Source: a virus. Taken from it: a DNA stretch of 39,148 nucleotides. Below, piece by piece: positions 5,161 to 37,545 of this stretch. The stretch spans positions 1 to 39,148 of IMG/VR virus record IMGVR_UViG_3300034198_013709. One strand, written 5' to 3'. The notes below the pieces were generated by a model. It was not told where the DNA came from and made no database searches. It worked only from the letters and a program-made list of their open reading frames with translations. The translations under genes were made by a program, and so were the position numbers. Position 1 is the first letter of the stretch. Each line of letters starts with the position of its first letter.

Positions 5161-5196
5161 GATTTTGTTTACTTCGCCCACTCTCTGTGCTTATCA

Positions 5197-5271: not shown

Positions 5272-5292
5272 TCTGCAGGTGGCAGTCTAAAG

Positions 5293-5367
<75 letters not shown>

Positions 5368-5592: not shown

Positions 5593-5604
5593 ATAAAACA
5601 TTTA

Positions 5605-5679
5605 TGGTAGTCGAGGTGGGACTCGAACCCACAACCCCCGCCTTGTAAAGGCGATGCTCCGCCATTGAGCTACTCGACT
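5605..5679 (-). tRNA. tRNA-Val(TAC)
   Basis: 75-base cloverleaf with encoded CCA. Acceptor AGTCGAG/CTCGACT, anticodon loop TTTACAA, T-arm GTGGG-TTCGAGT-CCCAC. The next tRNA gene is only 3 bases away. Confidence 0.95.
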
Positions 5680-5682
5680 GTA

Positions 5683-5769
5683 CGGAAGCGGTGGGATTCG
5701 AACCCACGGTAGCCTTCCGACTACGACGGTTTTCAAGACCGTTGCCTTAGACCACTCGACCACGCTTCC
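5683..5769 (-). tRNA. tRNA-Ser(TGA)
   Basis: Class II with long variable arm (CGTAGTCGGAAGGCTACC). Acceptor GGAAGCG/CGCTTCC, anticodon loop CTTGAAA, T-arm GTGGG-TTCGAAT-CCCAC, discriminator G. CCA is not encoded. Confidence 0.94.
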
Positions 5770-5787
5770 TGTGTTTAATGAAGAGGG

Positions 5788-5868
5788 TTCCTGTGACCGG
5801 ACTCGAACCAGCGAGGTGACCGACAGAGGTTCAGTTATGCCTCCGTCTACCCCGGAACCAACACAGAG
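5788..5868 (-). tRNA. Aberrant tRNA-like element (identity unassigned)
   Basis: It has a T-arm (GCTGG-TTCGAGT-CCGGT) and an acceptor-like pairing CTCTGTG/CACAGGA with one mismatch, and is followed by CCC rather than CCA. The anticodon region is abnormal: GACGGAGG pairs with CCTCTGTC (8 bp) around the 10-base loop CATAACTGAA. A forced cloverleaf gives an 8-base loop with AAC after U33. It may be a decayed tRNA, a tRNA with an expanded anticodon loop, or a tRNA-like RNA. Confidence 0.45.
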
Positions 5869-5918
5869 AGTCTGACCTCTCCAATATTATCCCACAAGCA
5901 TGAATTTGATTTTTGAAT

Positions 5919-6031
5919 CCCCACCACTCAATCTGCACGGATAACCTTTGCAGGTCAAACTTTCTAACCATGCTAAACGCAGATGTCACCGGTTGCGAGT
6001 GACGCCGATTATCCGGCAATCTGTGGTGGGG
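5919..6031. repeat. Inverted repeat enclosing about 95 bases
   Basis: CCCCACCAC at 5919-5927 pairs with GTGGTGGGG at 6023-6031, bracketing the spacer between the tRNA-like element and tRNA-Asn. Inside is a small GCCG/CGGC hairpin. No coding sequence in it convinces me. It may be a precursor-RNA fold or a tRNA-cluster relic. Confidence 0.45.
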
Positions 6032-6034
6032 AAG

Positions 6035-6111
6035 TGGCTCCCGCTCCCTGACTTGAACAGGGGACCCTCTGATTAACAGTCAGATGCTCTAACCAACTGA
6101 GCTAAGCGGGA
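6035..6111 (-). tRNA. tRNA-Asn(GTT)
   Basis: 77-base cloverleaf with encoded CCA. Acceptor TCCCGCT/AGCGGGA, anticodon loop CTGTTAA, T-arm CCCTG-TTCAAGT-CAGGG, discriminator G. Confidence 0.95.
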
Positions 6112-6118
6112 ATGAAGT

Positions 6119-6162
6119 GGGTTCCCCTGCCCCTCGAAAGGGGGCATAAAGGGTGGGAACCC
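6119..6162. terminator. Two-level hairpin, possible terminator
   Basis: GGGTTCCC (6119-6126) pairs with GGGAACCC (6155-6162) and the inside folds again as CCCCT-CGAA-AGGGG with a stable GNRA-like loop. It lies between the 77-aa gene and tRNA-Asn on the - strand. No clear U-tract follows, so it may act as a processing or stability element instead. Confidence 0.5.
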
Positions 6163-6274
6163 GTTACCCTTCTTCTTTGTCGGGCTTATAACCATTTAGA
6201 AGAAATTCTGGCATCCCCCTGTTTAGAGGAGACGTCCGACAGTTGCGTTGTCAAAGAGTCAACCCTTAGAGGGG

Positions 6275-6508
6275 TTAGTCCCTAGGCTCTTCCAGCCTGT
6301 TCCGTTGACCTTGAGATTGATTCTTGACCCTAGGACGGAGCATCAGGGTGGCCCTTTGAGGACCATCCTTCTGTTGATCCTGAGGATGGAACACCAAGAT
6401 GGTCACCTTTGAGAGGTCCACCATAATCGGAAGATCAGTGCTGCCAATGTAGTACTCGTCACCGTACTTGTCTTCCCTGACTACGAGGGGGATCTCCAAC
6501 TGATTCAT
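6275..6508 (-). CDS. Hypothetical protein, 77 aa
   Basis: Starts MNQLEIPLVVREDKYGDEYY, with a beta-rich first half (VDLSKVTILVFHPQ) and a polar basic tail (RPRVKNQSQGQRNRLEEPRD). AAGG lies 9 bases before the ATG. It sits inside the tRNA cluster, between tRNA-Asn and tRNA-Ser(GGA), in the same direction and is probably on their transcript. Family not recognised. Confidence 0.6.
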   Translation of the reverse strand: MNQLEIPLVVREDKYGDEYYIGSTDLPIMVDLSKVTILVFHPQDQQKDGPQRATLMLRPRVKNQSQGQRNRLEEPRD

Positions 6509-6554
6509 CCGTTCTACCTTGTGTTAGTCTATCAGTTTATTACCATCGCTGGTG

Positions 6555-6643
6555 TGGCGGAGACGGGGAGATTCGAACTCCCGGTACCTTTTGGGTACAC
6601 ACGATTTCCAGTCGTGCACCTTAAACCACTCGGTCACGTCTCC
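6555..6643 (-). tRNA. tRNA-Ser(GGA)
   Basis: Class II, 89 bases with encoded CCA. Acceptor GGAGACG/CGTCTCC, anticodon loop CTGGAAA, long variable arm TGTACCCAAAAGGTACC, T-arm GGGAG-TTCGAAT-CTCCC, discriminator G. First tRNA of the cluster in transcription order. Confidence 0.95.
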
Positions 6644-7349: not shown

Positions 7350-7386
7350 ATCCTTTTATACAAATGTCAAGAGTTCTGTAATTATT
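7350..7386 (-). promoter_or_regulatory. Phage consensus promoter
   Basis: On the - strand: AATAATTACAG, then CATTTGTATAAAAGGATG, with 15 bases between TTACAG and TATAAAA. The AATAATTA end overlaps the TAA stop codon of the 240-aa gene. It drives the 215-aa gene and perhaps the tRNA cluster beyond. Confidence 0.85.
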
Positions 7387-8162: not shown

Positions 8163-9323
8163 GTGAGTAAGGAGATACAAGCCGGATTCCCATGCCCTCA
8201 CCTCATCATAGAGGAAAGCGTGGATCTGGACGCAGACCGCAGATCCTTGTACACTTCGGCTCCTGTTTCCAACTCGGGTGGAGTTAGGATTCTGGTGAAC
8301 GACGAGTTATACATTCCTTCCAGTGGTTTGTATACCCAGGCTTCTTTGTATGGTGGCAAAGGACCCTTCAGAGTGGAGAAATGTTCTGGCCTCTCTGGGG
8401 CCAATGGCACTCTGTTCGGGGTTGAAACTTCCGTTGGTAAAACCGAGATCTTTTTACCCGTGGGGGCCAGAATAAGCCTTTCGGACATGGTGAAAGCCCT
8501 GAGGATAAGCGCGATAGCGAACATAGCGTTGGTCTCCATGGACAACGATAGTCTTAGGATAACCGATACCGAAAAGACTGGGACTAGCTCCTTAGTTAAA
8601 GTCCACGGTAGGGGTGCTAATTTGCTGGGGTTTACTCAGATGGGGAAGAGGGGTAACGAGTTGTTCCCACCGTGGGAAGTGGTTTCCAAAAGGGACGTTT
8701 ATCCCGCGTCCTATGCGGCTGGCGTGACTTTGGTCCCAGCCAAGTACCCAAGATTCGTTAGGCCCCTGCAGGGAAACCAGAGCATCAAGGTCACTTATCC
8801 TTGCATGCCAGAGAGGTGCTCTAGGTGCAGAGCTACCTACGTTGAGAACGATTATAAATTTGACCCGACTGGAGAGATAATAACCATTCAGAATGAGAAC
8901 CTTTTGTATCAGGCTTGTTTGAAGGCCATCCTGACCGTAAAGGGCTCTAACCCTTACCATACAGGGTACGGGTCTAGAATTATGAGCAGGATAGGACAAA
9001 AGAGCACCCTCCTGAGTGCTTCCCAGATTAGGGAAGACATAGTACAAGCTTTAAGCAACATACAAGCTCTGCAAAACGGGCAGAGAAAGTACCAGCAGGT
9101 AACCGATAAGGAACGCTTATACAGAGTATCCAGTGTGAACGTGAAAAACACCCAGGACCCCACCACTTTCCTCGTGGACGTGGTGGTGGTTAACGGGTCT
9201 AACCAGCCAGTCTCTATCAATATCACCTACACGGCTCCGGGTGCAATCGCCTTAGCAGGTTCCAACGGGAAGTCTCTAGGCACCGAAGCAGTCGGCGTAC
9301 AACGAATCTTAATCGGTGAGTAA
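8163..9323 (+). CDS. Baseplate wedge protein, gp25-like
   Basis: 386 residues from a GTG start with GAGGAGA upstream. The C-terminal half reads like the GPW/gp25 family of phage and contractile-tail baseplate wedges (NPYHTGYGSRIMSRIGQ followed by IREDIVQALSNIQALQ and VSSVNVKNTQDPTTFLVDVVVV). The N-terminal 200 residues are extra to the usual short gp25 and may be a fused structural domain. CPERCSRCRATY-like Cys residues near 215-223 could bind metal. It is followed 5 bases later by the gpJ-like gene, as in myovirus baseplate operons. Uses many AGG, AGA and ATA codons. Confidence 0.75.
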   Translation: MSKEIQAGFPCPHLIIEESVDLDADRRSLYTSAPVSNSGGVRILVNDELYIPSSGLYTQASLYGGKGPFRVEKCSGLSGANGTLFGVETSVGKTEIFLPVGARISLSDMVKALRISAIANIALVSMDNDSLRITDTEKTGTSSLVKVHGRGANLLGFTQMGKRGNELFPPWEVVSKRDVYPASYAAGVTLVPAKYPRFVRPLQGNQSIKVTYPCMPERCSRCRATYVENDYKFDPTGEIITIQNENLLYQACLKAILTVKGSNPYHTGYGSRIMSRIGQKSTLLSASQIREDIVQALSNIQALQNGQRKYQQVTDKERLYRVSSVNVKNTQDPTTFLVDVVVVNGSNQPVSINITYTAPGAIALAGSNGKSLGTEAVGVQRILIGE

Positions 9324-9328
9324 CCTAC

Positions 9329-12300
9329 ATGTCTGTTACTGTCCCACAGGTATACGGTCCGGATGGCGTCTTGAGGGGCGTTCTGGTGTATTCGACCACT
9401 TTGCAGAGAACCTTCTTCAACGGTGTGTTGCCAGACGATACCATTGAAGTCCAAGTATCCATAAACGGGTCTGGGTTCACCTCTGATAACTCAGTCGTGG
9501 AATGGGGTGACGGTACGTGGACGGTTCCCAATCCCTACTACGAGCCGGATGGTTTAGTCCTTCTTGAGGGGTCTAACTCGGTGCAGCTGAGGGCCATACT
9601 CCCCTCTGGGTCAGTCACCCCCAGTGTGGAAATTCAAGCGACCCTTGTGTCCTCCAGTGGTGTTACGGCTGTTCCCCCCACCAACATCTCCGTGGAGCAG
9701 AAGAACGAATCAATAGTTATAAGCATTGAAAAACCCTCTGTGTCTGCAGGATACTTCCGTGGGGTGAACTTTTATGCCTCCTTGTATGAGGGAGGTGGGG
9801 TAACTGGTTACTCCATGATCAATGTGAACAGAATAACCGATTATGTGACAGTTCAGGAGTCCAACACCTTCGCGGCACAACTGGTAGACATTCCCGTGAA
9901 GGTTGATAACAACGGGGTCCCCGTAGCAGACCCTTTATACTTCCGTATCATAGGAAGGCAAGAGGACGCCAACGAGGTTGTCCTACAGAATGATTACGAC
10001 GAGTCTTATCAGGTTCCGGAGACCGCTAGAACCATCCAACTCCAGACGACCCTAAGTCAGGTCAGGAATGTCGTTCTGTACCAATTCCTCCATAACCGGA
10101 GTTATGGGCCTAATTCCGTACCTTCTACGATTATGAACTCCGCGTTCACCAACACCAGTGCTTCGCAGCCTCTTTATTATGTGGCAACAGCGGTGTACTA
10201 CGACCCTTTGCAGAATCTTGAGTACGAGTCTTCCTTCTCTCAAGAAGTGGTGGGTAAGCCAGCAACCGTCACCACTGCAATAGGGTCCTTCCCGACTGTC
10301 AACAGACAGGATATCCTTCAGGAATTCGTGAAGGCGATTTTCAGGTCAAACCCTCAGATAAGGGTTGAGGCTGGAAGCGTCCTGAGAGACACGGTTATAG
10401 ACCCCTTTACCTCTGAATCCGAGAGACTAAGGTTCTTGCTGGACTTTTACCATCGCGCCCGCACGCCATCCCTATTGCTTCAAATAGACGACCCCACCAA
10501 TTCAGGTGTTAGTGTACCTGTCAGCCAAAGTGCTTATAAGCTCGGTCTCAAAAGTGCCCTCTACATAGACACCGCCGCTGATACCCAAGCTCTGATAGAC
10601 TCAGCCTTTGACGCTTATTCTAGCAACCTCGGGGTTACCAGAAGATCTGGTGTTTCTTCCAGAGGGGAAGTCACCTTCTTCACCTCGACACGCCCTCAGT
10701 CTACCATAGTTATACCTCTCGGTTCTCAGGTATCCGGTGGGGGCGTGACATTTTCCACCAATAGGACTGCTTCTATACCTTATGACCAACTGGCGTCTTA
10801 TTACGATCCGGTTTCTGGTTATTATAGGGTGAATGTGCCCGTAACCGCCAGTATCACTGGCAGCAAAACCAACGTAGGCTCGGGACAGATCAAATCTGTA
10901 GTTTCCAACATAAACGGATCCATAAGGGTAACGAATTCCGCAGCCATGGTGGGTGGTAGGGACGTGGAATCTAATCTGGACATGGTCGTAAGGACCCAGA
11001 ACCGGTTAGCATCCGTAGATTCTGGTACCGCCCGTGGGTACCTGCAAACCGCCGCCGACGTTCCGGGGGTTGTAAAGGCTAACGTGGTATCTGCGGGTGA
11101 CGCTCTCATGCAAAGGGACCTCAATTCAAGTGGGGTTCACAAGGGAGGGAAGGTAGAAATATGGGTTCAGGGCGAGAACATCGCGACCGTCACCGATACG
11201 TTCGCTTTCACCTTCGTTATCTCTCAAGATGTCCACTTCGAGATCGTCGGGGATCCTTCAAGTCTCACCTTCAGAGCGGTGGACTCCAGCCTGAGTGAGA
11301 TAGACCCCATCGTGGAGATGCTGGACAACGCTACCATAGGATACGCGTTCGTGAACGCTTCCACGGGGGACAATTTCGACCTCACCAATGTCAGCATACT
11401 GACTTACAACACTATACAATTGGACACCAGCTTAGTCCAGCCATCGGTTGATCTGACCGACGTGGTTTTGGGTTCTTATCGCAAACGTCTCGGCAACGAA
11501 TTCGTTCTGCCACGCCAACCAGCGTCTTCGATTACTTCTGTGGTCGGTACGGAGAGTGGAACTCTCCCGGTTGACTCTTATCTATTGGTGTTCCCGGACG
11601 ACCCTCTGGACACTGGCAGATCCGCGCTGGCCAAGGATTATCTCAGGGTTGATGGATACGTTGATACTACCACTGGTCAGACCATACCGAGTGGCTCAAC
11701 CATCTCGGTTGTAGACGAGACCCACGTTCTGATAGGTCAGTACCCAGAGTATTTGGACAATCTGGGGGCTAGTTACCTGACCGTGGTGGTGAAGAGTAGC
11801 GACGGTCTGGTGATCTACGCTGGCCCGAATGACCCCAGTGGGGTCCCAGATTATCAGATAACCGTGGGGTCTCAGACCCAGGCTCTGTCCGTCACCAGAA
11901 CCAACAACAGCACCATCCCTAATGGTGGATCCGTTCTGATCTCCTACCAGCACGACGAGAATTTCACGGTCACCTACACCACCAACCTCATAGTCAGTCT
12001 GACTCAGGAATCTGTGGACGCCAACAAACACGCCACCGCAGATGTCATAGTGAAAGAAGCAGTTCCGGTTCCGGTTGACGTAGAATGTACTATTCTTCTG
12101 ATCAGGGGGAGGGATCCCAGCACTGTTGACGCTTCCCTCAGGACTAATATGAGTAACTTCTTCTCCAATCTGAGGATAAGTGACCCGGTTCGTCAGTCGG
12201 ACATAATAGACGTGATAGAAAGAACCACTGGTGTTTCCTACGTCATAATCCCCCTCACCAAACTGGTCAGGCAAATAGGGTCGACCGTAGTTAGGGAGTC

Positions 12301-12799
12301 CCTATCCACTGATACCGCTGCCGAGAGCAGCCTACTGGTGGGACTCACCACCAATTCAGCAGTAGTCTACATTCTAAACCAGGCCTTGTCTTCCGCCACC
12401 GTGGACGGGGGAGGTGTGGAGGGCGAATTCAAAGCGGTGTTCCAAGACGACCTTGCCACCCAGCTTCTGGGATCGGGTGCCCCTATCAACACCCTTGGGA
12501 CTTCGAGTGGTCTGTCCTACGTCATAGGTTCAGACGGTAAGTCCATAGGCGGATACAGTGACGATGCCACTCTCATAGCAGCTGGATACACCACTACGTC
12601 CCAGATAAAAAGCAGGAGGTTAGAACTCACTGCCAACAAAGTTCTGGTGTCCTTCTCTCCAGGCGATAACCCGACTGCCCATACCTACACGGTCACATAC
12701 GTGGTGGGTTCGGATTCTGGAGCTAAGAACATAGAGACTGGAGCGGCTGAATACTGTAAGGTGGGGTCTCTGACTTTCACCTACGACGAGGATCGCTGA
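9329..12799 (+). CDS. Baseplate J-like protein (gp6/gp47 family), 1156 aa
   Basis: The middle section (about residues 345-640) has the hallmarks of Baseplate_J proteins: an early helix with EAGSVLRDTVIDPFTSE, beta-rich domain with VTASITGSKTNVGSGQI, VRVTNSAAMVGGRDVESNLD-type loop, and a helix with RTQNRLASVDSGTARGYLQTA. Residues 1-330 form extra Ig-like beta domains and the last 500 residues more beta-rich repeats, making it much longer than Mu gp47. It forms the outer baseplate wedge linking to fibres. Codon use is rich in ATA, AGG and AGA. The last 19 bases overlap the opposing GIY-YIG gene. Confidence 0.85.
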   Translation: MSVTVPQVYGPDGVLRGVLVYSTTLQRTFFNGVLPDDTIEVQVSINGSGFTSDNSVVEWGDGTWTVPNPYYEPDGLVLLEGSNSVQLRAILPSGSVTPSVEIQATLVSSSGVTAVPPTNISVEQKNESIVISIEKPSVSAGYFRGVNFYASLYEGGGVTGYSMINVNRITDYVTVQESNTFAAQLVDIPVKVDNNGVPVADPLYFRIIGRQEDANEVVLQNDYDESYQVPETARTIQLQTTLSQVRNVVLYQFLHNRSYGPNSVPSTIMNSAFTNTSASQPLYYVATAVYYDPLQNLEYESSFSQEVVGKPATVTTAIGSFPTVNRQDILQEFVKAIFRSNPQIRVEAGSVLRDTVIDPFTSESERLRFLLDFYHRARTPSLLLQIDDPTNSGVSVPVSQSAYKLGLKSALYIDTAADTQALIDSAFDAYSSNLGVTRRSGVSSRGEVTFFTSTRPQSTIVIPLGSQVSGGGVTFSTNRTASIPYDQLASYYDPVSGYYRVNVPVTASITGSKTNVGSGQIKSVVSNINGSIRVTNSAAMVGGRDVESNLDMVVRTQNRLASVDSGTARGYLQTAADVPGVVKANVVSAGDALMQRDLNSSGVHKGGKVEIWVQGENIATVTDTFAFTFVISQDVHFEIVGDPSSLTFRAVDSSLSEIDPIVEMLDNATIGYAFVNASTGDNFDLTNVSILTYNTIQLDTSLVQPSVDLTDVVLGSYRKRLGNEFVLPRQPASSITSVVGTESGTLPVDSYLLVFPDDPLDTGRSALAKDYLRVDGYVDTTTGQTIPSGSTISVVDETHVLIGQYPEYLDNLGASYLTVVVKSSDGLVIYAGPNDPSGVPDYQITVGSQTQALSVTRTNNSTIPNGGSVLISYQHDENFTVTYTTNLIVSLTQESVDANKHATADVIVKEAVPVPVDVECTILLIRGRDPSTVDASLRTNMSNFFSNLRISDPVRQSDIIDVIERTTGVSYVIIPLTKLVRQIGSTVVRESLSTDTAAESSLLVGLTTNSAVVYILNQALSSATVDGGGVEGEFKAVFQDDLATQLLGSGAPINTLGTSSGLSYVIGSDGKSIGGYSDDATLIAAGYTTTSQIKSRRLELTANKVLVSFSPGDNPTAHTYTVTYVVGSDSGAKNIETGAAEYCKVGSLTFTYDEDR

Positions 12800-19219: not shown

Positions 19220-21139
19220 ATGAATTCCACCATCGACAACCTCGCTGCTCGCCTCGTTGAAGCTAGCAACGCCTATTACAACCATGCCCCCATCGTGACT
19301 GATAGGGAATTTGATGCCCTAGAGTCCGAGCTTCGTCGCTTGGACCCTTCCCACCCCGTGCTGAAAGCCATCGGTTCTCCGGTGGAGGGCAGCGGCTGGA
19401 CCAAGGTCAGCCACCCCTACCCTATGGGGTCTCTGGAAAAGGCACAGGACGCCACTGAACTCACCGAATGGGCAAAGGGGAAGCAAGACTTCTTCATTTC
19501 CGAAAAGATGGACGGGATCTCGATTCTCCTGACTTACGAAGGTGGTTCCCTCGTTCGTGCTTGCACCCGTGGCGACGGGGTTGTGGGTGAAGATATCACC
19601 CGAAACGTAAAGCTCATGCATGGGGTCCCCCATAACGTCCCCGACACCACCACCCTCTACGTTCGTGGTGAAATCGTCTGCACCAAGGCGGATTTCTCCG
19701 CCCACTTTCCGGGCGAATCAAACCCCCGGAACACGGCTTCTGGGACCAGCAAGCGGCAGACGGGCTGGGATAAGTGCCAGCACCTCACTGTTTACGCCTA
19801 CGACCTGAGTCAGGGGTCGGTGATGCCCGCTGAGAAGCAGGGGGAATTTGCTATCCTGCGTAGCTACGGGTTCAAGACCCCGGTTTCTTACTGGGCGGGA
19901 TCGGTTGGGGAAATTTTGGTAGTCTATCAAGCCTACATCAATTATGCACGCGACGTTTCACCCTACGAGATCGACGGACTCGTGGTGGAACTGAACGACC
20001 CCATCGAACAGATTCGGCTTGGTTATACTCCGGATGGTATGCGCCCCAAGGGTGCGATCGCTTTCAAGTTCCCGCATGACTCCAAGCCCACTGTTCTCCT
20101 CGATGTGATCTGGCAGGTGGGTCAATCTGGCCGAGTAACCCCGGTTGCGGTGTTCGAACCCGTGGTGCTTGGCGGGGCCAGCATCACTCACGCTTCCCTG
20201 CACAACATCGCAAACGTGGATCGTCTCGTCACTGAGTCCAAGAGTCTGTTTCTCGCGGCGGGCGAGTCCATCCTCGTTTCTCGAAGGAACGACGTTATCC
20301 CGTACGTCGAGAGCATCCTCACTTCCGGTGGTGTCGGGGAGATTCTGAACACCCCTCACCGTTGTCCGGATTGTGACAGCTCTTTGGTCATGGACGGTGA
20401 ATACCTCATGTGCCCCAACACCGACGAATGCCCCTCCCAGATCCTTGGTGGGATTCGCCGTTGGATCATGAAGACCGGGGTTCTCCACTTCGGTGAAGCC
20501 ATGATCGCAGCCGTGGTGGACGCTGGGATGGTGACCATTCTTGGTGACCTTTACAGGCTCGACCTCAATCAGGTTTCCGACCTGAAGGTAGAAGGTCGCA
20601 AGGTCGGGGGTGCCGCGAAGCGTGCTCTCGGTTCCCTCCACCAGAACAAGAATCTCACCCTCGACACCTTCGTGGGTTCGCTGGGGATCCCGCTCTGTGG
20701 TCGTCGGATGGTGGGGATGCTCATGGAGGGTGGATTCACCACTCTGGAATCCTTGCGACAGGCGACCGTGGCGGAGTTGGCAGCTGTCCCGAACTTCGGA
20801 ACGGTGAAGGCCGTGGCGTTCAGGGACGGTTTCGACGCCCGAACCAATATGATCAACGACCTGCTTCTTGCAGGAGTGACGATCGTAACTCCGGTGGTCC
20901 TGACCCAGACCAGCACCGCACTGCAGGGTGTTAGCGTCTGTTTCACCGGGTTCCGTGACAGCGATCTGGAAGACTCCATCGTGGCGGCAGGTGGTGTAAT
21001 CAAGTCTGGTGTCAGCAAGGGTCTGACCTACCTCGTCACCAAGGACCCCACCTCGACCTCTGGCAAGGCTCAGAAGGCTCGCGACCTTGGTACCAAGGTC
21101 ATCTCTCCGGACGAGATGAAATTGATGGTGGTGAACTAA
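19220..21139 (+). CDS. ligA: NAD-dependent DNA ligase
   Basis: 639 residues, near the usual bacterial LigA length. Seen in order: Ia domain for NAD binding (YYNHAPIVTDREFDALE), the nucleotidyltransferase with active-site Lys96 in KMDG, RGDGVVGEDIT and VRGE, the OB fold (IWQVGQSGRVTPVAVFEPV), the four-Cys zinc finger (CPDCDSSLVMDGEYLMC with a later DECPSQ), helix-hairpin-helix repeats (LGIPLCGRRMVGMLM) and a BRCT domain at about 570-639. It seals nicks using NAD+, and should work in phage replication. T4-like phages usually carry ATP-dependent ligases instead. Codons favour CTC, CGT and ATC, so it belongs with the early regulon, consistent with its promoter. Confidence 0.97.
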   Translation: MNSTIDNLAARLVEASNAYYNHAPIVTDREFDALESELRRLDPSHPVLKAIGSPVEGSGWTKVSHPYPMGSLEKAQDATELTEWAKGKQDFFISEKMDGISILLTYEGGSLVRACTRGDGVVGEDITRNVKLMHGVPHNVPDTTTLYVRGEIVCTKADFSAHFPGESNPRNTASGTSKRQTGWDKCQHLTVYAYDLSQGSVMPAEKQGEFAILRSYGFKTPVSYWAGSVGEILVVYQAYINYARDVSPYEIDGLVVELNDPIEQIRLGYTPDGMRPKGAIAFKFPHDSKPTVLLDVIWQVGQSGRVTPVAVFEPVVLGGASITHASLHNIANVDRLVTESKSLFLAAGESILVSRRNDVIPYVESILTSGGVGEILNTPHRCPDCDSSLVMDGEYLMCPNTDECPSQILGGIRRWIMKTGVLHFGEAMIAAVVDAGMVTILGDLYRLDLNQVSDLKVEGRKVGGAAKRALGSLHQNKNLTLDTFVGSLGIPLCGRRMVGMLMEGGFTTLESLRQATVAELAAVPNFGTVKAVAFRDGFDARTNMINDLLLAGVTIVTPVVLTQTSTALQGVSVCFTGFRDSDLEDSIVAAGGVIKSGVSKGLTYLVTKDPTSTSGKAQKARDLGTKVISPDEMKLMVVN

Positions 21140-21985: not shown

Positions 21986-22840
21986 ATGAGTAGGTCGGGT
22001 AAGAAAACCGCCCCGTATAAAGAGTCCTCAGCACAAACCGGGGCCGATTGCATATACGCACAGGAGGCCAAACGTTGGAAACTCCTGACGAGGGAAGAAG
22101 AGAAGGCACTGGCCACCAAGTGCGTGTGGGATTCCGGGAACCAAATCCCGGTACACGTTCGGAACTCAAGAGAAGAATTTTTCAAGAGGAACATGCGGCT
22201 GGTCATATCCATGTCCAAAAAGTATGGGACTGCAACTCCGGGTGTAACTCAGGCAGACCTAATACAGGAAGGTTCCATAGGTCTGATGCGAGCCATCGAG
22301 AAATTCGATCATACGCGTGGGGTCAAATTCAGCACCTACGCCGTCTGGTGGATACGCCAAGCCATGACCAGAACGGTGTACCAGACCAGCAGTCTGGTAA
22401 GGCTCCCAACGAACGTGATTTCAAGCAGATACAAACTAATCCGTATAATGAACTCCCCCGAGTATGCGGGTATTCGGGAGTACGAGACCCGTGCCGGTGT
22501 AATAAACAAGATTTCGGAAGACACGGGCTGGGAAGTCTCCTACATAGAAAAACTTCTGGATGCCCCTTTTGTTAGATCCACGACGGATGACGAAATCCTA
22601 GACACGATCCCAGATTCTCATGCGAACACAGAGACCATGGACTTGGATTTAGACTTCACTTTGGTAAGCGAACGTGTAAACAAAACCTTCAAGGAACAGT
22701 CCGTCCCAGACAGAGACGTGTCCATATTCTGGGATTGGATCACCAATAGTTATTCCTTGTCCGAGATAGGTCTTAAGCATGGTATCACGCGGGAGAGAAC
22801 TAGGCAGGTTGTGCTTAGTCTAATCTCCCGCTGTTCGTGA
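21986..22840 (+). CDS. RpoD-family sigma factor (sigma-70)
   Basis: 284 residues with a near-complete set of sigma regions: 1.2 (CIYAQEAKRWKLLTREEEKALA), 2 (FFKRNMRLVISMSKKYG, DLIQEGSIGLMRAIEKFD, FSTYAVWWIRQAMTR), 3 (LVRLPTNVISSRYK and ISEDTGWEVSYIEKLL) and 4.2 helix-turn-helix (YSLSEIGLKHGITRERTRQVVLS). It lacks region 1.1. It would redirect the host RNA polymerase; the consensus promoter family here, with a 15-bp spacer and TATAAAA, is a natural candidate target, though that link is inference. ATA, AGG and AGA codons are frequent. Confidence 0.93.
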   Translation: MSRSGKKTAPYKESSAQTGADCIYAQEAKRWKLLTREEEKALATKCVWDSGNQIPVHVRNSREEFFKRNMRLVISMSKKYGTATPGVTQADLIQEGSIGLMRAIEKFDHTRGVKFSTYAVWWIRQAMTRTVYQTSSLVRLPTNVISSRYKLIRIMNSPEYAGIREYETRAGVINKISEDTGWEVSYIEKLLDAPFVRSTTDDEILDTIPDSHANTETMDLDLDFTLVSERVNKTFKEQSVPDRDVSIFWDWITNSYSLSEIGLKHGITRERTRQVVLSLISRCS

Positions 22841-27483: not shown

Positions 27484-28644
27484 ATGACCGCTTCTCTCGA
27501 CACTCGCCTCTCCTGTTCCGCTTGCGCCTACAAAGGTCACTCTCTGGTCGACCACATGGCGTCCAGCCACCCCAGTGTAGACACCAGCGGCATGGTCCTT
27601 TTGTCGGACACGTTGACCACGAGCTTCGATGATTCCCGTAAGGGCGTCACCCGTCGTCCTGCGACGGTGAACGAGCTTGAAGCCAACCTGATGGGCCACA
27701 AGGTCCGGGTCAACCACCAGATCCGCGAGGACCAGTGCCTCCCCTCGGTCCCGAACTACGCCTTCCCCACCAAGGGTGCGGCCAAGGGTTGTTTCGAGCG
27801 TGCTCTTCTGGCGTTGGTTCGTCAGAAGCCGGTGTTCATCTGGGGTGGACCCGGAACCGGCAAGGATGCCGTCGTTCACGCCTATTGCTCCATGACCCGC
27901 ACTCCCAGCTTGGTGTTCACGTTCACCCGTGGCACCAACGTGAAGGGCTGGTTCTACAGCCGCTCGATTGGGAAGGAAGGCACCGGTTGGGAGTACGGTG
28001 CTCTCTGGAATGCGCTCGTCCACGGCATCGAGGGTCGTGACGGCAAGCGTTACCCGGCTTTGATTCTGTTCAGCGACGTTGACCGTGGTGACGACGATCA
28101 GCTGGAAGAGTTCCGCTTGGTGCTGGACACCACCAGCAAGCGTATCGTCGGTCCTGACGGCAGCACTTCCAAGATCATGGAGGGAACCCAGTTCGCGTTC
28201 ACCGCGAACTCCAACGGCAACGGTGCCGAAGGGATGTCGAGTCGCCCCATCGACGCTTCGTTGATCGACCGCATGGGTCGCTTCGTGGAGTTCACCGCTC
28301 TGCATTGGGACGACGAAGGGAAGGTCCTCCGCGAGAAGTTCAGCCTGCTGAACGAGCGTTGCCCTGACATCTTCGACCAGCTTGGGGCTTCGGTCGCTGG
28401 GCTTCGGTCGCTGATCAAGGATGGACGGCTCTTCGCAGAAATCAGCCACCGTGGCTTGTGCGAAATCCTGAGCGAGTGTGAGGATCTCGTGTGGTCTGCC
28501 AATGGCAAGGTCCCCACCAACGTCCTGCGTCACGGCTTCAAGGCGTGGCTCGACCGTCTGGACCACGACAATCAGATGATCGCCAAGACGGAGATCAACG
28601 CCCAACTCAAGGGTGGCACCTTCTCCGACGAGGCGGCGGTCTGA
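27484..28644 (+). CDS. MoxR/CobS-type AAA+ ATPase
   Basis: 386 residues. A Cys/His-containing N-terminus (LSCSACAYKGHSLVDHMASSH) looks like a small zinc finger, also present at the N-terminus of CobS-like proteins in phages. Then Walker A GGPGTGKD (about 120-127), Walker B LILFSDVDR (about 194) and sensor 1 FAFTANSNG (about 237). MoxR and CobS ATPases work with VWA partners to remodel or insert metal into target proteins. HExxH and VWA genes lie 2-3 kb downstream under the same promoter class, which supports a chelatase-like or chaperone complex. Host-like codons. Confidence 0.85.
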   Translation: MTASLDTRLSCSACAYKGHSLVDHMASSHPSVDTSGMVLLSDTLTTSFDDSRKGVTRRPATVNELEANLMGHKVRVNHQIREDQCLPSVPNYAFPTKGAAKGCFERALLALVRQKPVFIWGGPGTGKDAVVHAYCSMTRTPSLVFTFTRGTNVKGWFYSRSIGKEGTGWEYGALWNALVHGIEGRDGKRYPALILFSDVDRGDDDQLEEFRLVLDTTSKRIVGPDGSTSKIMEGTQFAFTANSNGNGAEGMSSRPIDASLIDRMGRFVEFTALHWDDEGKVLREKFSLLNERCPDIFDQLGASVAGLRSLIKDGRLFAEISHRGLCEILSECEDLVWSANGKVPTNVLRHGFKAWLDRLDHDNQMIAKTEINAQLKGGTFSDEAAV

Positions 28645-28648
28645 ACCA

Positions 28649-28690
28649 ATCCCCCCCCACTGCCCCCAAAAGGGGTGGTGGGGGGGATTT
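28649..28690 (+). terminator. Hairpin terminator after the ATPase gene
   Basis: An uninterrupted C-run/G-run stem (ATCCCCCCCCAC with GTGGGGGGGAT) with inner CCCC-CAAAA-GGGG, then TTTC. It begins 4 bases after the stop and runs into the next promoter. Confidence 0.75.
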
Positions 28691-28720
28691 CAAAAGCCTC
28701 CACATTTGTATAAAAGGATG
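28684..28720 (+). promoter_or_regulatory. Phage consensus promoter
   Basis: GGATTTCAAAAG, then ACATTTGTATAAAAGGATG, spacer 15 from TTTCAA. Drives the winged-helix/zinc protein gene at 28802 and probably the two genes after it. Confidence 0.87.
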
Positions 28721-28768
28721 TGAGGGTGTGGTACCTAGAATCGTTCCCTCTTTTTCAGTCAACAATCC

Positions 28769-28801
28769 CGTTCTCCCAATGAGGGAGACAAGGAGTTTTT
28801 C
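28769..28801 (+). promoter_or_regulatory. Conserved leader hairpin with ribosome site
   Basis: GTTCTCCC-AATGA-GGGAGAC followed by AAGGAGTTTTTC and the ATG. Same stem, loop length and spacing as at 27452, 30721 and 34206. Confidence 0.75.
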
Positions 28802-29644
28802 ATGCAATTCCCCATCAATTCCTCTGTGGACTCTTGGAAGCCCATCGTCCTGAATGTGATCTCCTCCAATGCGGCGACCACCGAAATCCGGGTCACCGAG
28901 ATTGCGGACGCCATTGAAGCCCTCCCGGCCTTCCCCGGCTGGGCCTCGTGGGGCACGATCACCCAGCGCAACGAGGAGTACCCCGTGGCGCGTCGGGATA
29001 TGGCGTTTGCGGCTTCGCGACTCCGCGACGAGGGGAAAGTCTTCTCTCCGGTCCGTGGTCGCTACACCATGGTGCCTTGTGCGGTTCCGATGGTTGTGAC
29101 TCCGGTGGCTCCGGTGGTTCAGGCTGTGAACCAGCCCGAACAGGCAGTTCAGGCAGTTCAGGCTCCGGTGGTGAAGACGGTCGTGGTTTCGACCGTCCCG
29201 GCCAACGATCCTCTGCTGGTCGAGGACACCGGACTCCGTCGCATGATGATCGCGGGGACCCGGTGCTTCGGTCTCTACCATGATCGCGCACCGACTTGCA
29301 AGACTTGTCCCCTCGCTGGCTTCTGTTACGAGGCTGGGAAAGCCGACTACGGTAACATCGCGGCTCGTCTTGACACCGCCACTCTCGCGGCTTTGGAAGC
29401 TGCAGCAGCCCCCAAGGTGGTTGAGGTTGCACCCACTCCTGCGCCCACCCCCACTCCTGCCCCCACTCCTGTTGCCCCTCAAACGGGGGGAGTTATGTAC
29501 AGCCACCGTGTGGGTGCCGAGTACACTCTGGACACGGCGACATTCAAGCTGTTCTGCTCCGGGTGTCGTGGTCTGATTGATTCTGGTACACAGTTCGCTC
29601 GCGTCCCCAATCACGGGGTCTACCATGTTGGTTGCGTGCAGTAG
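28802..29644 (+). CDS. Protein with winged-helix-like N-terminus and PARP-type zinc finger
   Basis: 280 residues. N-terminal about 80 residues (NVISSNAATTEIRVTEIADAIE, RRDMAFAASRLRDEGKV) read as a winged helix. After a Val/Pro/Gln linker comes a Cys cluster (GTRCFGLYHDRAPTCKTC with PLAGFCYEA), then a Pro/Thr repeat linker (PTPAPTPTPAPTP). The C-terminus ends FKLFCSGCRGLIDSGTQFA...GVYHVGC, a CxxC...HxxC layout like PARP-type zinc fingers that sense DNA ends. Probably DNA-binding. Other PARP-associated modules (WGR, SAP) are encoded nearby. Assignments rest on motif spacing only. Confidence 0.65.
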   Translation: MQFPINSSVDSWKPIVLNVISSNAATTEIRVTEIADAIEALPAFPGWASWGTITQRNEEYPVARRDMAFAASRLRDEGKVFSPVRGRYTMVPCAVPMVVTPVAPVVQAVNQPEQAVQAVQAPVVKTVVVSTVPANDPLLVEDTGLRRMMIAGTRCFGLYHDRAPTCKTCPLAGFCYEAGKADYGNIAARLDTATLAALEAAAAPKVVEVAPTPAPTPTPAPTPVAPQTGGVMYSHRVGAEYTLDTATFKLFCSGCRGLIDSGTQFARVPNHGVYHVGCVQ

Positions 29645-29689
29645 CTCGCCTCTTTCAACGTTTCTCCCCACTCAAGAGGCATAAATAGC

Positions 29690-30136
29690 ATGCGTACGAT
29701 GAATCTCCCCGACAGTTCCGCCATTGATAGCTCCACCCCGGTAGCACAAGTTGCCGAGGCTGCTCTCGGTCTGGTCGCTATCACCGATTCCCTCAACAAG
29801 GAAATCGAGCGATTGAAAGTTCTGATCCGTGCTGGCACCAGCGGCAAAATCACCAATATCGACACCCCGAACGGATCGGTGTCGGTGGTCCGACCTGACC
29901 CGTCTTGGACCCTCAGGGATGGCAAGACTTACAAGGACGTTCAGCGGGAACTGGGGGACAAGTCTTCTATGTTCTTCGCGACCCACATCCAGATCGCCCC
30001 TCACCGGGACCTTGCCAGCCGTTTGACAGCAATTGACGACGTCTATCTCAAGAATACAGTGCTGGATCTGGTGGATCACAATTCCGCCACCCCTCGTGTC
30101 GGGTTCAAGTCCTTTAAGCCCACCGAGGAGGTGTAA
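29690..30136 (+). CDS. Hypothetical protein, 148 aa
   Basis: Starts MRTMNLPDSSAIDSSTPVAQ. A helix (VAITDSLNKEIERLKVLIRAG) precedes a beta segment (NGSVSVVRPDPSWTLRDG) and further helices. AGAGG lies 10 bases before the first ATG. It follows the winged-helix gene by 45 bases and precedes the next gene by 2 bases, so it is the middle of a three-gene unit. Family not recognised. Confidence 0.7.
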   Translation: MRTMNLPDSSAIDSSTPVAQVAEAALGLVAITDSLNKEIERLKVLIRAGTSGKITNIDTPNGSVSVVRPDPSWTLRDGKTYKDVQRELGDKSSMFFATHIQIAPHRDLASRLTAIDDVYLKNTVLDLVDHNSATPRVGFKSFKPTEEV

Positions 30137-30138
30137 AC

Positions 30139-30690
30139 ATGATTACCCTTTACAAATTTATGATCACCAGTCCCGATGGGATGTTGCACCCCAGATGCAA
30201 CGAAAACATTTGGGGTGCAGTGTGGTTTTCCACCCCTGAAGAAGCCATTCAAGGATTTCAAAACTTGGTTGAGGAATGCCTAGCTGAACGGGATTCCATC
30301 GTGAAAGTCGTTCCTCGTGAATTCGTTGTATCCGAACACGCAGCCCGTGGCACCACCGTGATTCTCGATGAAGAGCACGGCTTGGCGACTTGGATCTGGG
30401 ACTCGGGCCTCTCTCATGGGGAACTCGTAAAATATTGGTCCGACCTCCTTTCTGTGGACCACCTGTATTTGAGACTCAAATTACTCCCCGGCATGATTAC
30501 GTGTGTCCTACCAACTGGGTCTCACGGTCTGGTCCTCTCCAAAGACGGGAACTCCGTGATTCGGTGTGGCGGGGGAGTTTGGACTTCCCATCTCTGGAAA
30601 GACAACGATTCTTGGCTCCAAGATGATAAAGGAACCCGAATCCACCACAGGGGATTTCAGGAAAACGGACATTTGTATAAAAGGATGTAA
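30139..30690 (+). CDS. Hypothetical protein, 183 aa
   Basis: Starts MITLYKFMITSPDGMLHPRC, 2 bases after the previous stop and with GAGGAGG upstream of the ATG. Soluble, mixed alpha/beta, Trp- and His-containing (GLATWIWDSGLSHGELVKYW). Its last nine codons (ENGHLYKRM) are the sequence of the next consensus promoter, so the C-terminus is dictated by promoter DNA. Family not recognised. Confidence 0.65.
   Translation: MITLYKFMITSPDGMLHPRCNENIWGAVWFSTPEEAIQGFQNLVEECLAERDSIVKVVPREFVVSEHAARGTTVILDEEHGLATWIWDSGLSHGELVKYWSDLLSVDHLYLRLKLLPGMITCVLPTGSHGLVLSKDGNSVIRCGGGVWTSHLWKDNDSWLQDDKGTRIHHRGFQENGHLYKRM
30652..30689 (+). promoter_or_regulatory. Phage consensus promoter inside a gene end
   Basis: GGGATTTCAGG, then ACATTTGTATAAAAGGATG, spacer 15 from TTTCAG. 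Fully within the 3' coding end of the 183-aa gene. Drives the HExxH-protein gene at 30755. Confidence 0.87.
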
Positions 30691-30720
30691 GGGTCAATCC
30701 TTCTAATTTCCCAATCTTCC

Positions 30721-30754
30721 GTTCTCCCAATGAGGGAGACAAGGAGTTTCTATC
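30721..30754 (+). promoter_or_regulatory. Conserved leader hairpin with ribosome site
   Basis: GTTCTCCC-AATGA-GGGAGAC followed by AAGGAGTTTCTATC and the ATG. Same element as at 27452, 28769 and 34206. Confidence 0.75.
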
Positions 30755-31879
30755 ATGGTCGATCGTAGCAAATGGCTCGCCTCGCAACAGGTAGCTGCCC
30801 ACTCCATTCTGGGCAAGAACGAGATTCCGGTTTCGTCCCAAGGATCTAACTTCTACAACGTTGGTCGCTGGACCTGCCGTGTGGCGCAGTCCAAGATCAC
30901 CGACTCTCTGAAGTTGGGCAACGCGTTTTCTCGCGAAATGGTGATGAACGCCATTCTGGTGGCAAACCGCCAGTACGTCAGCGAGAAGAAGATCGTGATC
31001 GCGTCCACCCCGGAGAAGTTGCCGGGTTGGCTCCACCGTGCCTCGATTGGTGGGGTCTATCATGAGACTTGGCACACCAGATACTCCTGCCAGCGTAACC
31101 TCACGATGGATGAGGTTTACGAGCCGCTTGTTGAGCGTTGGGATCTGGTGCCTGATTGGCGTCCCTATTTGGGGATGGTCCTGATGTGGGGCAACGTGGT
31201 AGAAGACATCCGCATCGAGCGGGTGGGTTGCCGGGAGTATCCGGGTGCCGACTCCGTGATGCCTGACCTCCAAGACCTCATCCTCCGCATGGAAGCCGAA
31301 GGTCGCGAGGCCAGCGACCATCGCAAGAATCCGGGTGCCGACACTCTGGGCACCATCATGTGCATCTTCCGGGATCTTGGTCTTGGCTACCAGTCTTCCC
31401 TCCAAATCCGCACTCTGGAGGACTACAAGACCCGGAACCCCAAGGCGTGGGATCTGGTCACCAATGGTGCGATGCGCCCGTTGCTGGACCGTGCAATCAA
31501 CCTCTCGGCCAAGGACGATCTCGGTCACTGGTGGATTGCGCTGGAGGTTGTGGGGATGCTCTACTCCCTTGGCCACAAGCAGGAGAAGCCCCAGCCCCAG
31601 CAGCCCCAGCAGGGTGGTGGTGCTGAACCCGAGCCTCCTCCCCAGCCTGCTCCCAAGGACTACGTTCCTGACGAAGAACCCCGTAAGGCTCCTTCCGAAG
31701 AAGCTCCTGCTGGGACCAGCGCAGAGGGTGACCGACCCCACCTCTACCGTGTCGGTGACCGTGCCACTCTCAAGGGTGGTGTGTACAAGGGACGGAAGGT
31801 CGAGGTAGTCTTTGCTGGGGTGCCTGACCAGACTGGAAAGCAGGACTTGCAGTTCTCCCTCGTTGAGGACGAGGATTGA
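30755..31879 (+). CDS. HExxH / EDxRIE protein, CobT-like or VWA-partner metallopeptidase-like
   Basis: 374 residues. VYHETWHTRY carries HETWH (about 103-107), and NVVEDIRIERVG (about 147-157) gives the N..ED.R.E motif. Both are seen in the N-terminal part of CobT-like/VWA proteins and in HExxH-type partners of MoxR systems. A Pro/Gln/Glu-rich linker (residues about 275-335) leads to a C-terminal SH3-like barrel (YRVGDRATLKGGVYKGRKVEVVF), a KOW-style fold. In cobaltochelatase and MoxR pairs this part is fused to a VWA domain; here the VWA is the next gene, so the gene looks split. Host-like codons. Confidence 0.65.
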   Translation: MVDRSKWLASQQVAAHSILGKNEIPVSSQGSNFYNVGRWTCRVAQSKITDSLKLGNAFSREMVMNAILVANRQYVSEKKIVIASTPEKLPGWLHRASIGGVYHETWHTRYSCQRNLTMDEVYEPLVERWDLVPDWRPYLGMVLMWGNVVEDIRIERVGCREYPGADSVMPDLQDLILRMEAEGREASDHRKNPGADTLGTIMCIFRDLGLGYQSSLQIRTLEDYKTRNPKAWDLVTNGAMRPLLDRAINLSAKDDLGHWWIALEVVGMLYSLGHKQEKPQPQQPQQGGGAEPEPPPQPAPKDYVPDEEPRKAPSEEAPAGTSAEGDRPHLYRVGDRATLKGGVYKGRKVEVVFAGVPDQTGKQDLQFSLVEDED

Positions 31880-31882
31880 CCA

Positions 31883-31920
31883 AATAATTTCACCAGAGTT
31901 CACATCTGTATAAAAGGATG
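31883..31920 (+). promoter_or_regulatory. Phage consensus promoter
   Basis: AATAATTTCACC, then CATCTGTATAAAAGGATG, spacer 15. Drives the VWA gene; its GGATGGAG tail also supplies the ribosome site. Confidence 0.87.
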
Positions 31921-31930
31921 GAGATTTCCA

Positions 31931-33535
31931 ATGTCCACCGAAATGATCATGATGCGACTCGGCCTTCAGTTGGTCGGGTTGAATACCGACCTCGCCCCCA
32001 TTGAAGAAGACGAGTCCTCCGAAGCCAGCGGTGGAAAGGGCACTGAATCGGACGAAGAAGAAGAGTCCGACGAAGAAGAGACCGAAGAAGAAGAGTCCTC
32101 TGGTGGTTCTTCTGACGAAGAGTCCGAAGACTCGGACGATTCCGAAGAAGACGAGTCGGACGATTCCGAAGACTCGGACGAATCGGACGAATCGGACGAA
32201 TCGGACGAATCGGACGATTCGGACGAATCCGAAGAAGACGAGGAGTCCGAAGAGACCTCTGGTGGTTCTTCTGACGAATCTGAAGACTCTGACGAAGAGT
32301 CGGAAGAAGAGTCCGAAGAGTCGGGCGAAGAGTCGGGAGAATCGGGCGATGAGTCCGAAGAAGACTCCGCTGAATCTGCTGACGTCAGCGATGGTGCTGG
32401 TGACCCCAGCGAGTCCGAAGACAGCGAAGAGTCCGAAGACAGCGACAACGAGTCCGAAGGTGGCACTGGTCCTTCTTCTGACGACGAGTTCGGGGCCAGC
32501 GTCCTAGACGGTCTTGAGTCGGAAGACGTCGGCGTGAAGAGCAGCAACGAGGCCCTCAAAGAGGGTGTCGAGGAATGCCGCGACGAGAACGTTCTGCCCA
32601 ACGAGATGGTCTGGCGTCCTTTCTCCACGAGCGGGGACAAGGTCTTGAAGCCCAAGACGGGTCCCGAGGCCGAACAAAAGGCAGTGCGCGCCCAAAAGGT
32701 GGTCTCCACCATTGTCGCGGCACTCCGCGCCCAGTTTCGTAACAAGTACCTCCGCGCTCGCACCCCCGAAGTAAAGCACGGGGTTCGTCGTGGTCAGGAC
32801 CTTTCTGAACGTCGCTTGGTAGACTCCATGGTGGAAATTCGGTCTGGGGTTGCCCCAAGCCGTCCCTTCATGAAGCTCAAGCCAGCCGACGACGAGAGTC
32901 TCGCGATCGCTGTCGTCGGTGACGAGAGTGGTTCTATGGCCGGTGAACGTGCCAAGAACGCTGCCCTCGCGATGCTGGCGGTTGCCGAGACTTTCGACAG
33001 TCTGGGTTCCCCGATCATGTGCTGTGGCATCCGTGACGGTGACAGTTATCATTACAACACCGATGGTGTTGCAGACACCGGGACCGTGTACCACCGCAAT
33101 CAGTCCGTGACGGTCGACCTGTTCAAGGATTGGGACGAGCCGCTCCGGACATGCCGCGCTCGCTTCGCTGGATACCGCGCCACTGGTGGTACGCCGCTGA
33201 GCGATGGAATCCAGTACGCTCTGGAAGCCATTTCTCGTCGTCAGGAGAAGCACCGGATCATCCTCGTGATGACCGATGGTCAGCCGTCTGACGGTCAGGT
33301 GGTTGCTCGCCAGATTCGCCTCGCCAAGGAAGCTGGCATCACCATCGTGGGTATTGGCATCGGTTACGGCACGGAATTCGTGAACGAGTTGTTCGACACG
33401 GGCATCGTGATCGAGAACCTCAGCCAACTCCCTATCACGCTGGTGAAGACGGTCGATGGAATCGTCTTCCCTAAGCAGGGTGGAAAGAAGGTTGCCCTCG
33501 ACGCGAGCACGGGTCTGGTCCCCAAGCGGTTCTAA
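31931..33535 (+). CDS. VWA-domain protein with long acidic Ser/Asp/Glu region
   Basis: 534 residues. Residues about 24-198 are almost only Ser, Asp, Glu and Gly, including SDESDESDESDESD, and are strongly negative and probably disordered. The VWA fold follows a helical linker: AIAVVGDESGSM (about 325-336) gives the MIDAS DxSGS metal site, GGTPLSDGIQYAL the Thr, and VMTDGQPSDG the Asp. Architecture (acidic region then VWA) matches CobT and MoxR-partner VWA proteins. With the MoxR ATPase and HExxH protein it likely forms an ATP-driven chelatase/chaperone. Promoter and leader class match its partners. Confidence 0.85.
   Translation: MSTEMIMMRLGLQLVGLNTDLAPIEEDESSEASGGKGTESDEEEESDEEETEEEESSGGSSDEESEDSDDSEEDESDDSEDSDESDESDESDESDDSDESEEDEESEETSGGSSDESEDSDEESEEESEESGEESGESGDESEEDSAESADVSDGAGDPSESEDSEESEDSDNESEGGTGPSSDDEFGASVLDGLESEDVGVKSSNEALKEGVEECRDENVLPNEMVWRPFSTSGDKVLKPKTGPEAEQKAVRAQKVVSTIVAALRAQFRNKYLRARTPEVKHGVRRGQDLSERRLVDSMVEIRSGVAPSRPFMKLKPADDESLAIAVVGDESGSMAGERAKNAALAMLAVAETFDSLGSPIMCCGIRDGDSYHYNTDGVADTGTVYHRNQSVTVDLFKDWDEPLRTCRARFAGYRATGGTPLSDGIQYALEAISRRQEKHRIILVMTDGQPSDGQVVARQIRLAKEAGITIVGIGIGYGTEFVNELFDTGIVIENLSQLPITLVKTVDGIVFPKQGGKKVALDASTGLVPKRF
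32060..32500 (+). repeat. Low-complexity coding repeat (GAA/GAC/TCC/TCG codons)
   Basis: Within the VWA gene, in-frame units such as GACGAATCG and GAAGAGTCC repeat many times. The stretch 32180-32220 is four copies of the GAATCGGAC unit. Length is probably variable by slippage. Confidence 0.75.
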
Positions 33536-34127: not shown

Positions 34128-34166
34128 AATAATTTCACGAAAGCTTACATTTGTATAAAAGGATAG
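34128..34166 (+). promoter_or_regulatory. Phage consensus promoter
   Basis: AATAATTTCACG, then TACATTTGTATAAAAGGAT, spacer 15. Drives the SAP-domain gene through a leader hairpin. Confidence 0.88.
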
Positions 34167-34205
34167 AGCGGTGGTAATCATCGCTCCTTCAGTCTCAACC
34201 CACCC

Positions 34206-34239
34206 GTTCTCCCAATAAGGGAGACAAGGAATCTCTACC
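34206..34239 (+). promoter_or_regulatory. Conserved leader hairpin with ribosome site
   Basis: GTTCTCCC-AATAA-GGGAGAC followed by AAGGAATCTCTACC and the ATG. Loop is AATAA in place of AATGA; AAGGAA replaces AAGGAG. Otherwise the same as at 27452, 28769 and 30721. Confidence 0.72.
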
Positions 34240-35228: not shown

Positions 35229-35804
35229 ATGAAAATCGCCATGACCGAAAACGCCGCTGGCAACCACTTTGTCGCTGGTCGCAGTGGAACCTTCATCCCG
35301 AACGTGACCCCGGATGAATTTATGACTGCCCTCGCTGAAAGGATGGCATCCGGTGACACCATCCTGAGCGGTGGTTATGCTCCCTTTTGTAAGCACATCT
35401 TCGTGCGGAACTTCACCAACGCGTCTGCAGGTGTGGCTCGTATCACCGATGGGAACCGACACTGGCTCATGACGGGATACGAGGCACGTCGTCCGGAGGA
35501 ACTCCCCGTTCTGGTGCGGTGGTTCCCTCGTGACGCCATGCCTCTAGAGAAGTCCGAATGGCTGGACGTTATTTTGTACTCCGGTGAGCAACTCCTCAAG
35601 GAGGAGGCTCCTACTTCCTCCTTGGAAGAGTGGGGCATCGTCGCCATCCACAGTGCTTCCCACCCTTTCGAGTCGCCCATGATTCCGGTCACCATGATGC
35701 GCAACGCCTTGGGAATCGATGAGGGTGGTTCTGGGGTCCCATTGGACCGTGAAGCCTACCTCAAGGGAGTTAAATACTGGGGCGATCACGCAGTCCTCCG
35801 CTGA
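35229..35804 (+). CDS. DUF3228-family protein, 191 aa
   Basis: Residues about 95-190 match this family: LPVLVRWF, WLDVILYSGEQLLKE, WGIVAIHSASHPFESPM, PVTMMRNALGIDEGGSGVPL and DREAYLKGVKYWGDHAV. The family is widespread in bacteria and plants with no known function. Length is typical. The ribosome site is AAGAGGA before the ATG at 35229. It has terminators on both sides, so it is a separate unit, with no consensus promoter seen just upstream. Host-like codons. Confidence 0.75.
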   Translation: MKIAMTENAAGNHFVAGRSGTFIPNVTPDEFMTALAERMASGDTILSGGYAPFCKHIFVRNFTNASAGVARITDGNRHWLMTGYEARRPEELPVLVRWFPRDAMPLEKSEWLDVILYSGEQLLKEEAPTSSLEEWGIVAIHSASHPFESPMIPVTMMRNALGIDEGGSGVPLDREAYLKGVKYWGDHAVLR

Positions 35805-37507: not shown

Positions 37508-37545
37508 GATAATTTCACGGAAACCTAGATTTGTATAAAAGGATA
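37508..37545 (+). promoter_or_regulatory. Phage consensus promoter
   Basis: GATAATTTCACGG, then AGATTTGTATAAAAGGATAG, spacer 15. Drives the WGR gene and genes downstream of it. Confidence 0.88.

Follow-up and report, generated by a model that had tools for sequence, protein, structure and literature searches.

The window analysed here is the complete IMG/VR record IMGVR_UViG_3300034198_013709, a stretch of 39,148 bases that probably represents part of the genome of a tailed phage. Three of its genes encode an AAA+ protein, a protein of 374 amino acids (aa) with an HExxH motif, and a protein with an acidic linker followed by a VWA domain (Table 1). A preliminary description, made from the sequence alone, had presented them as a split CobS/CobT-like set. 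All three open reading frames (ORFs) were confirmed, and the assignment was strongly supported by a gene fusion in a related virus (L031), a profile match with the N-domains of phage CobT, a structure search of BFVD, and matches to phrog_249 and phrog_1576.

Comparison with other phages indicates that the HExxH and VWA proteins are the N- and C-terminal parts of a single phage CobT chain. In an IMG/VR record of 43 kb (L031), positions 1036-3180 encode a fused ORF of 714 aa, which shares 40% identity with the HExxH protein (E = 1e-58) and 37% with the VWA protein (E = 4e-79). The known phage CobT used for comparison (Rhizobium phages, SSU5, ICP2, a Roseobacter phage, cyanophages and Ochrobactrum phage OC) are likewise single chains, consisting of HExxH, N..ED..IE or a close variant, a charged linker, and a VWA domain with a metal ion-dependent adhesion site (MIDAS). 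In the window the two parts do not lie on one polypeptide, and its CobT is a split homologue and not a typical member. The VWA protein matched phrog_1576 (3.4e-38) from position 228 to 724 of 729, and therefore lacks the N-terminal 227 positions; CobT_C above the cut-off and VWA were found in it as well. Its MIDAS was intact, as described earlier, with DESGS at residues 331-335 (32921-32935), TGGTPL at 418 and TDG at 448. It follows an acidic linker (residues 23-190, 31997-32500) with 54% Asp and Glu, a single Lys and no Arg or His, as expected of a CobT-type VWA protein.

No family was found for the 374-aa protein in Pfam, PHROGs, NCBIfam or PADLOC, and searches with this protein alone (tblastn in phages, pattern searches in IMG/VR) gave no relatives, which were first reached via the VWA and AAA genes. 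When the protein and four further homologues, all of which keep both HExxH and N..ED, were compared by hhalign with the N-domains of ten phage CobT (eight of them matching PF06213 CobT), a score of 51.8 was obtained (P = 8.4e-7). Column shuffling, repeated 150 times, gave scores of 25.5 at most, and reversal of the profile gave 16.5. In the alignment the two HExxH motifs faced each other, as did N..ED..IER and its equivalent, and the match survived the masking of HExxH (P = 1.9e-5). Assignment of the 374-aa gene to an unrelated family, which the preliminary description had named as the result that would speak against it, was thus looked for, and a CobT N-domain was found. A BFVD search with the AF2 model of the protein (pLDDT 72, pTM 0.65) gave phage CobT/VWFA proteins as the top matches (E = 7.6e-6), with HHTV-2 gp2 in fourth place. 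Both reported motifs were present, HETWH at residues 103-107 (31061-31075) and NVVEDIRIE at residues 147-155 (31193-31219). HETWH is predicted to lie on helix 91-110, and E150 and D151 on helix 136-161; judged by sequence and predicted helices only, this is the zincin arrangement of HExxH and an acidic residue on a later helix, a possible third ligand. The C-terminal tail is called KOW-like because residues 321-374 gave weak PDB matches of KOW/CAP-Gly type; Pfam KOW itself matched in one member only, with E = 0.2.

Separate HExxH and VWA genes were also found in L005 (with its near-duplicate L007), L023, L024 and L025. The split relatives come from contigs of 113-297 kb, and their HExxH proteins share 44-49% local identity with that of the window; L023 and L025 are closely related (AAA 90% identical), and L006, which begins within the VWA gene, gives no evidence on an HExxH gene. 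Readthrough of a stop codon from the HExxH to the VWA gene was rejected, as the frames differ in L005, L023 and L024 and the gap contains a promoter-like element. In the window (31877-31930) the two genes do share a frame, separated by TGA and 17 open codons, probably by coincidence. Two parts at the break distinguish the split group from the fused L031 protein, which lacks them: the KOW-like tail of the HExxH protein and, before the acidic linker of the VWA protein, a segment of approximately MxRLGxxxxGSNxDLxP. We infer that these two dock together. A split CobT has already been published for HHTV-2 (gp2 and gp3, PMC8651126), where HExxH and VWA are likewise two neighbouring genes and gp2 has HEVQH and NVLEDNHID; the sequences are very distant, however, and the AAA protein gp10, with GKT and DE, is encoded farther off.

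The AAA+ protein matched phrog_249, annotated as 'porphyrin biosynthesis' (1.2e-11), as well as AAA_5, and has an N-terminal CxxC..H..H finger. Its start at 27484 was preferred to the GTG at 27406 chosen by the ORF caller, since it is located downstream of a leader hairpin and a Shine-Dalgarno sequence. Although the core is related to CobS, the earlier statement that all ATPase motifs are present did not hold: Walker A is GGPGTGKD (27844-27867), with Asp in place of the expected GK[ST]. In Walker B, LFSD-V-DR, the usual Asp-Glu is replaced by Ser-Asp (28072-28077). The protein retains sensor 1 (N242), sensor 2 (R323) and an Arg finger (R263). In an alignment of viral CobS, from which the row of an integrative and conjugative element was disregarded as probably the wrong gene, GKD and FSD[VI]DR were common to all six members from the window and its relatives, whereas the 15 others had GK[TS] and DE. 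GKS and DE were also observed in 21 AAA frames adjoining cellular CobT, of which GKS alone is an independent result, these frames having been chosen by a pattern that requires DE. In P-loop ATPases, Mg2+ is contacted by these two positions, the Walker A Thr/Ser and Walker B. In the AAA+ protein, the residue types at the predicted Mg2+ site are in effect swapped, which makes the altered motifs a natural experiment on the metal site of AAA+ proteins.

The viral and the cellular CobT differ in a peptidase-type motif. HExxH, with N..ED or a near match to it farther along the chain, was found in 15 of the 17 CobT from viruses or mobile elements, and in none of the 30 cellular ones, even though the domain is homologous; the aligned cellular residues are, for example, SIALK and then EAVEQARVEA. 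The cellular sample was drawn from 150 genomes of one bacterial phylum searched with PF06213, 40 of which had matches, and the best 30 loci were inspected. The parallel with cellular CobT drawn in the preliminary description is thus correct as to the homologous domain but not as to HExxH, and the 374-aa protein is not of the cellular type. Because the motif is present in viral and absent from cellular CobT, the viral protein resembles a metallopeptidase and not a chelatase subunit.

This bears directly on cobalamin, since phage cobS and cobT are widespread and often read as vitamin B12 auxiliary genes. Viral CobS and the split CobT could assist the CobN of the host in cobalt insertion and so raise cobalamin during infection, as proposed for viral cobST in PMC8651126; the homology to CobS and CobT is in favour of such a role, and a host CobN is possible. 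We nevertheless consider it improbable. Apart from the HExxH contrast, CobN (PF02514) had no match in seven records, some of them possibly fragments, while the control matched in five genomes, and cobalamin genes were not seen beside cobST in the phage neighbourhoods inspected. Ribonucleotide reductase (RNR, PF02867) was matched in one of the seven records, G006, and a B12-dependent RNR was consequently rejected as a general rationale. The cellular CobN-CobS-CobT system, although its CobS and CobT are homologous, differs from the phage one in its CobT, which lacks HExxH in the 30 inspected, and in its AAA motifs, and its CobN had no counterpart in the records searched. Cobalt insertion, mentioned earlier among the known roles, therefore found no support; the cobalamin interpretation of the viral pair is unlikely, and the vitamin B12 label on the machine is probably wrong. 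The HExxH contrast argues that the viral pair does another job, probably protein remodelling or processing. In PMC8651126 the 'peptidase' annotation of cyanophage CobT is called a mistake; in the S-PM2, S-CRM01 and Mosig proteins that bear this annotation, HExxH, N..ED and MIDAS are in fact present, and the remark 'mistakenly annotated as a peptidase' may have matters reversed. The peptidase reading as such is not new: Iyer et al. (PMC7824862) described a pair of MoxR and metallopeptidase-VWA in jumbo phages and proposed a role in virion assembly.

From these results, the explanation that we favour, with moderate confidence, is a viral CobS/CobT-type machine with a split CobT that remodels or processes proteins and is not a cobaltochelatase. 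The AAA+ protein would form a MoxR-type ring, and the VWA protein would capture a client via its MIDAS and couple it to the ring across the acidic linker. The HExxH protein would act as a zinc metallopeptidase or a zinc-dependent binding subunit and would be delivered to the client when it docks on the VWA protein, with the KOW-like tail and the segment at the VWA N-terminus as possible docking sites. Other phage CobS/CobT pairs (phrog_249 with phrog_1576; RHEph10, SSU5, ICP2, cyanophage 'peptidase' with cobS) have the same N-domain with HExxH and N..ED, acidic linker and MIDAS VWA and, in several cases, the N-terminal Zn finger of the AAA protein, but their CobT is a single protein, and their Walker motifs are GK[TS] and DE. 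The split form provides a stand-alone domain for peptidase testing.

Tentatively, the client could be a replication or recombination protein, because known phage cobST usually lie among such genes: DNA ligase and Pol III alpha in Rhizobium phages, nickie-like phages and SSU5; DnaB, primase and recombinase in a Stenotrophomonas phage; DNA polymerase and primase/helicase in T5S1; gp46/47 and the clamp in OC and S-PM2. No close replication or recombination genes were found at cobST in Mosig, S-CRM01 and HHTV-2, and the pattern is at most suggestive. In a Salmonella genomic island (L016) an HExxH-bearing CobT homologue adjoins ssb and bet, and near-identical copies of the island CobT (L046-L053) occur in other bacteria, both on plasmids and on chromosomes.

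A client role in virion assembly is our second and less probable guess. As a competing explanation, a MoxR-VWA chaperone or peptidase that serves in the folding, assembly or trimming of a structural protein is equally unlikely: the group 2.2 jumbo phages (PMC7824862), where the peptidase and VWA are fused, have the same three domain types, read as a chaperone and co-chaperone with a peptidase, and baseplate genes are located within 6 kb of the L006 block, yet replication and recombination genes surround the pair in most known phages examined, and the island with ssb and bet is, as annotated, not a virion builder. Somewhat less probable still is a non-catalytic scaffold, in which the HExxH protein would bind structural zinc and the AAA+ protein would be a non-hydrolysing nucleotide switch, together making a regulated binding platform. 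GKD and SD in all members and the two viral CobT devoid of HExxH would fit it, but HExxH and N..ED are conserved throughout the split group and in distant viral CobT, and sensor 1, the Arg finger and sensor 2 have been kept. The MoxR-VWA conflict systems mentioned in the preliminary description found no support, as the bpMoxR match of the AAA+ protein stayed below the cut-off and a PADLOC scan of the window detected no defence system.

Several observations weigh against the remodelling machine. Proteolysis, zinc binding and complex formation by the three proteins are predictions from sequence only, and with its altered Walker motifs the AAA+ protein could be a dead ATPase. Two phage CobT (hairong, Stenotrophomonas) are without HExxH, and therefore catalysis is not universal. 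The profile match of the HExxH protein was lost when both HExxH and N..ED were masked (P = 0.31), the L031 fusion being independent of this motif-dependent match, and comparison of the model with the PDB gave nothing significant and no solved peptidase fold. As to the client, the L006 baseplate genes near the block are homologous to those at 8163-12799 of the window, and the closest replication gene found in the window, that of the DNA ligase, is 6 kb from the block.

Table 1 Features of the window and the evidence for their assignment.
Feature	Position	Strand	Basis
Promoter-like element	7351-7383	-	
Baseplate genes	8163-12799		
NAD-dependent DNA ligase	19220-21139		
Sigma factor	21986-22840		
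Promoter-like element before AAA	27372-27404	+	
Leader hairpin and Shine-Dalgarno, AAA	27451-27477	+	
CobS-like MoxR-clade AAA+ protein, 386 aa	27484-28644	+	phrog_249, AAA_5, alignment with other viral CobS
Promoter-like element before ORF280	28686-28718	+	
Leader hairpin and Shine-Dalgarno, ORF280	28769-28795	+	
ORF280: winged-helix-like N-domain, Cys cluster, C-terminal Zn-finger-like domain	28802-29644	+	homologues and model
ORF148: conserved partner, ends (T)PRVGFK	29690-30136	+	homologues in relatives
Promoter-like element before HExxH gene	30653-30685	+	
Leader hairpin and Shine-Dalgarno, HExxH gene	30720-30746	+	
HExxH protein, 374 aa: CobT N-domain, KOW-like tail	30755-31879	+	profile match, fold match, L031 fusion
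Promoter-like element before VWA gene	31886-31918	+	
VWA protein, 534 aa: conserved N-terminal segment, acidic linker, VWA	31931-33535	+	phrog_1576, CobT_C, VWA
Promoter-like element before SAP gene	34131-34163	+	
Leader hairpin and Shine-Dalgarno, SAP gene	34205-34231	+	
SAP-domain protein, 289 aa	34240-35109	+	leader hairpin in common; near block in L023, L024, L025
Promoter-like element	37511-37543		

The three genes belong to a conserved block. The AAA gene was accompanied by homologues of ORF280 and ORF148 in all six records, ORF280 directly following AAA, and the HExxH-VWA pair is placed upstream or downstream of AAA depending on the record, L023 and L025 having it in inverted orientation. 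Family searches gave no usable assignment for ORF280 or ORF148. The domains of ORF280 were drawn from its model and weak fold matches, and its Cys cluster, C-x10-C-x2-C-x5-C, resembles iron-sulphur motifs. Among the phage CobS/CobT pairs compared, those of the split group alone were accompanied by these two genes. The split group may conceivably be a lineage with a two-piece docked CobT and a rewired Mg2+ site in the AAA+ protein, tied to nucleic acid through ORF280 and ORF148 as obligate partners, but we hold this to be rather doubtful. The SAP-domain protein is a possible further member of the block.

The preliminary description had assigned the HExxH and VWA genes each a copy of one promoter. 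The promoter-like element, AATTTCAC-N13-TGTATAAAAGGA, does precede both, and the AAA gene as well, but it is phage-wide and not particular to the module: 12 copies were found in the window, on both strands, with 0 expected. The sigma factor of the phage may read it. The leader hairpin, TCTCCC-N5-GGGAGA-CAAGGAG, has its stem immediately 5' of the Shine-Dalgarno sequence; a variant precedes the start at 23867, and none was found before the VWA gene. Its folding was mildly stronger than that of shuffles (z from -1.1 to -2.4). In the relatives L005, L006, L023, L024 and L025, hairpins with different stem sequences were found at the same genes, and over six records 40 starts had a hairpin compared with about 3 in mononucleotide block shuffles, not all 40 being independent, given the relatedness of L023 to L025 and a single hairpin that serves two L006 matches.

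A search of bacterial genomes with the AAA profile gave no relatives, and therefore no link to a host or prophage. The window contains 15 tRNA genes, 14 of which form a single cluster on the minus strand (3625-6643). At 35229-35804, the phage carries a full-length DUF3228 protein (E = 5e-64), a member of a family of unknown function.

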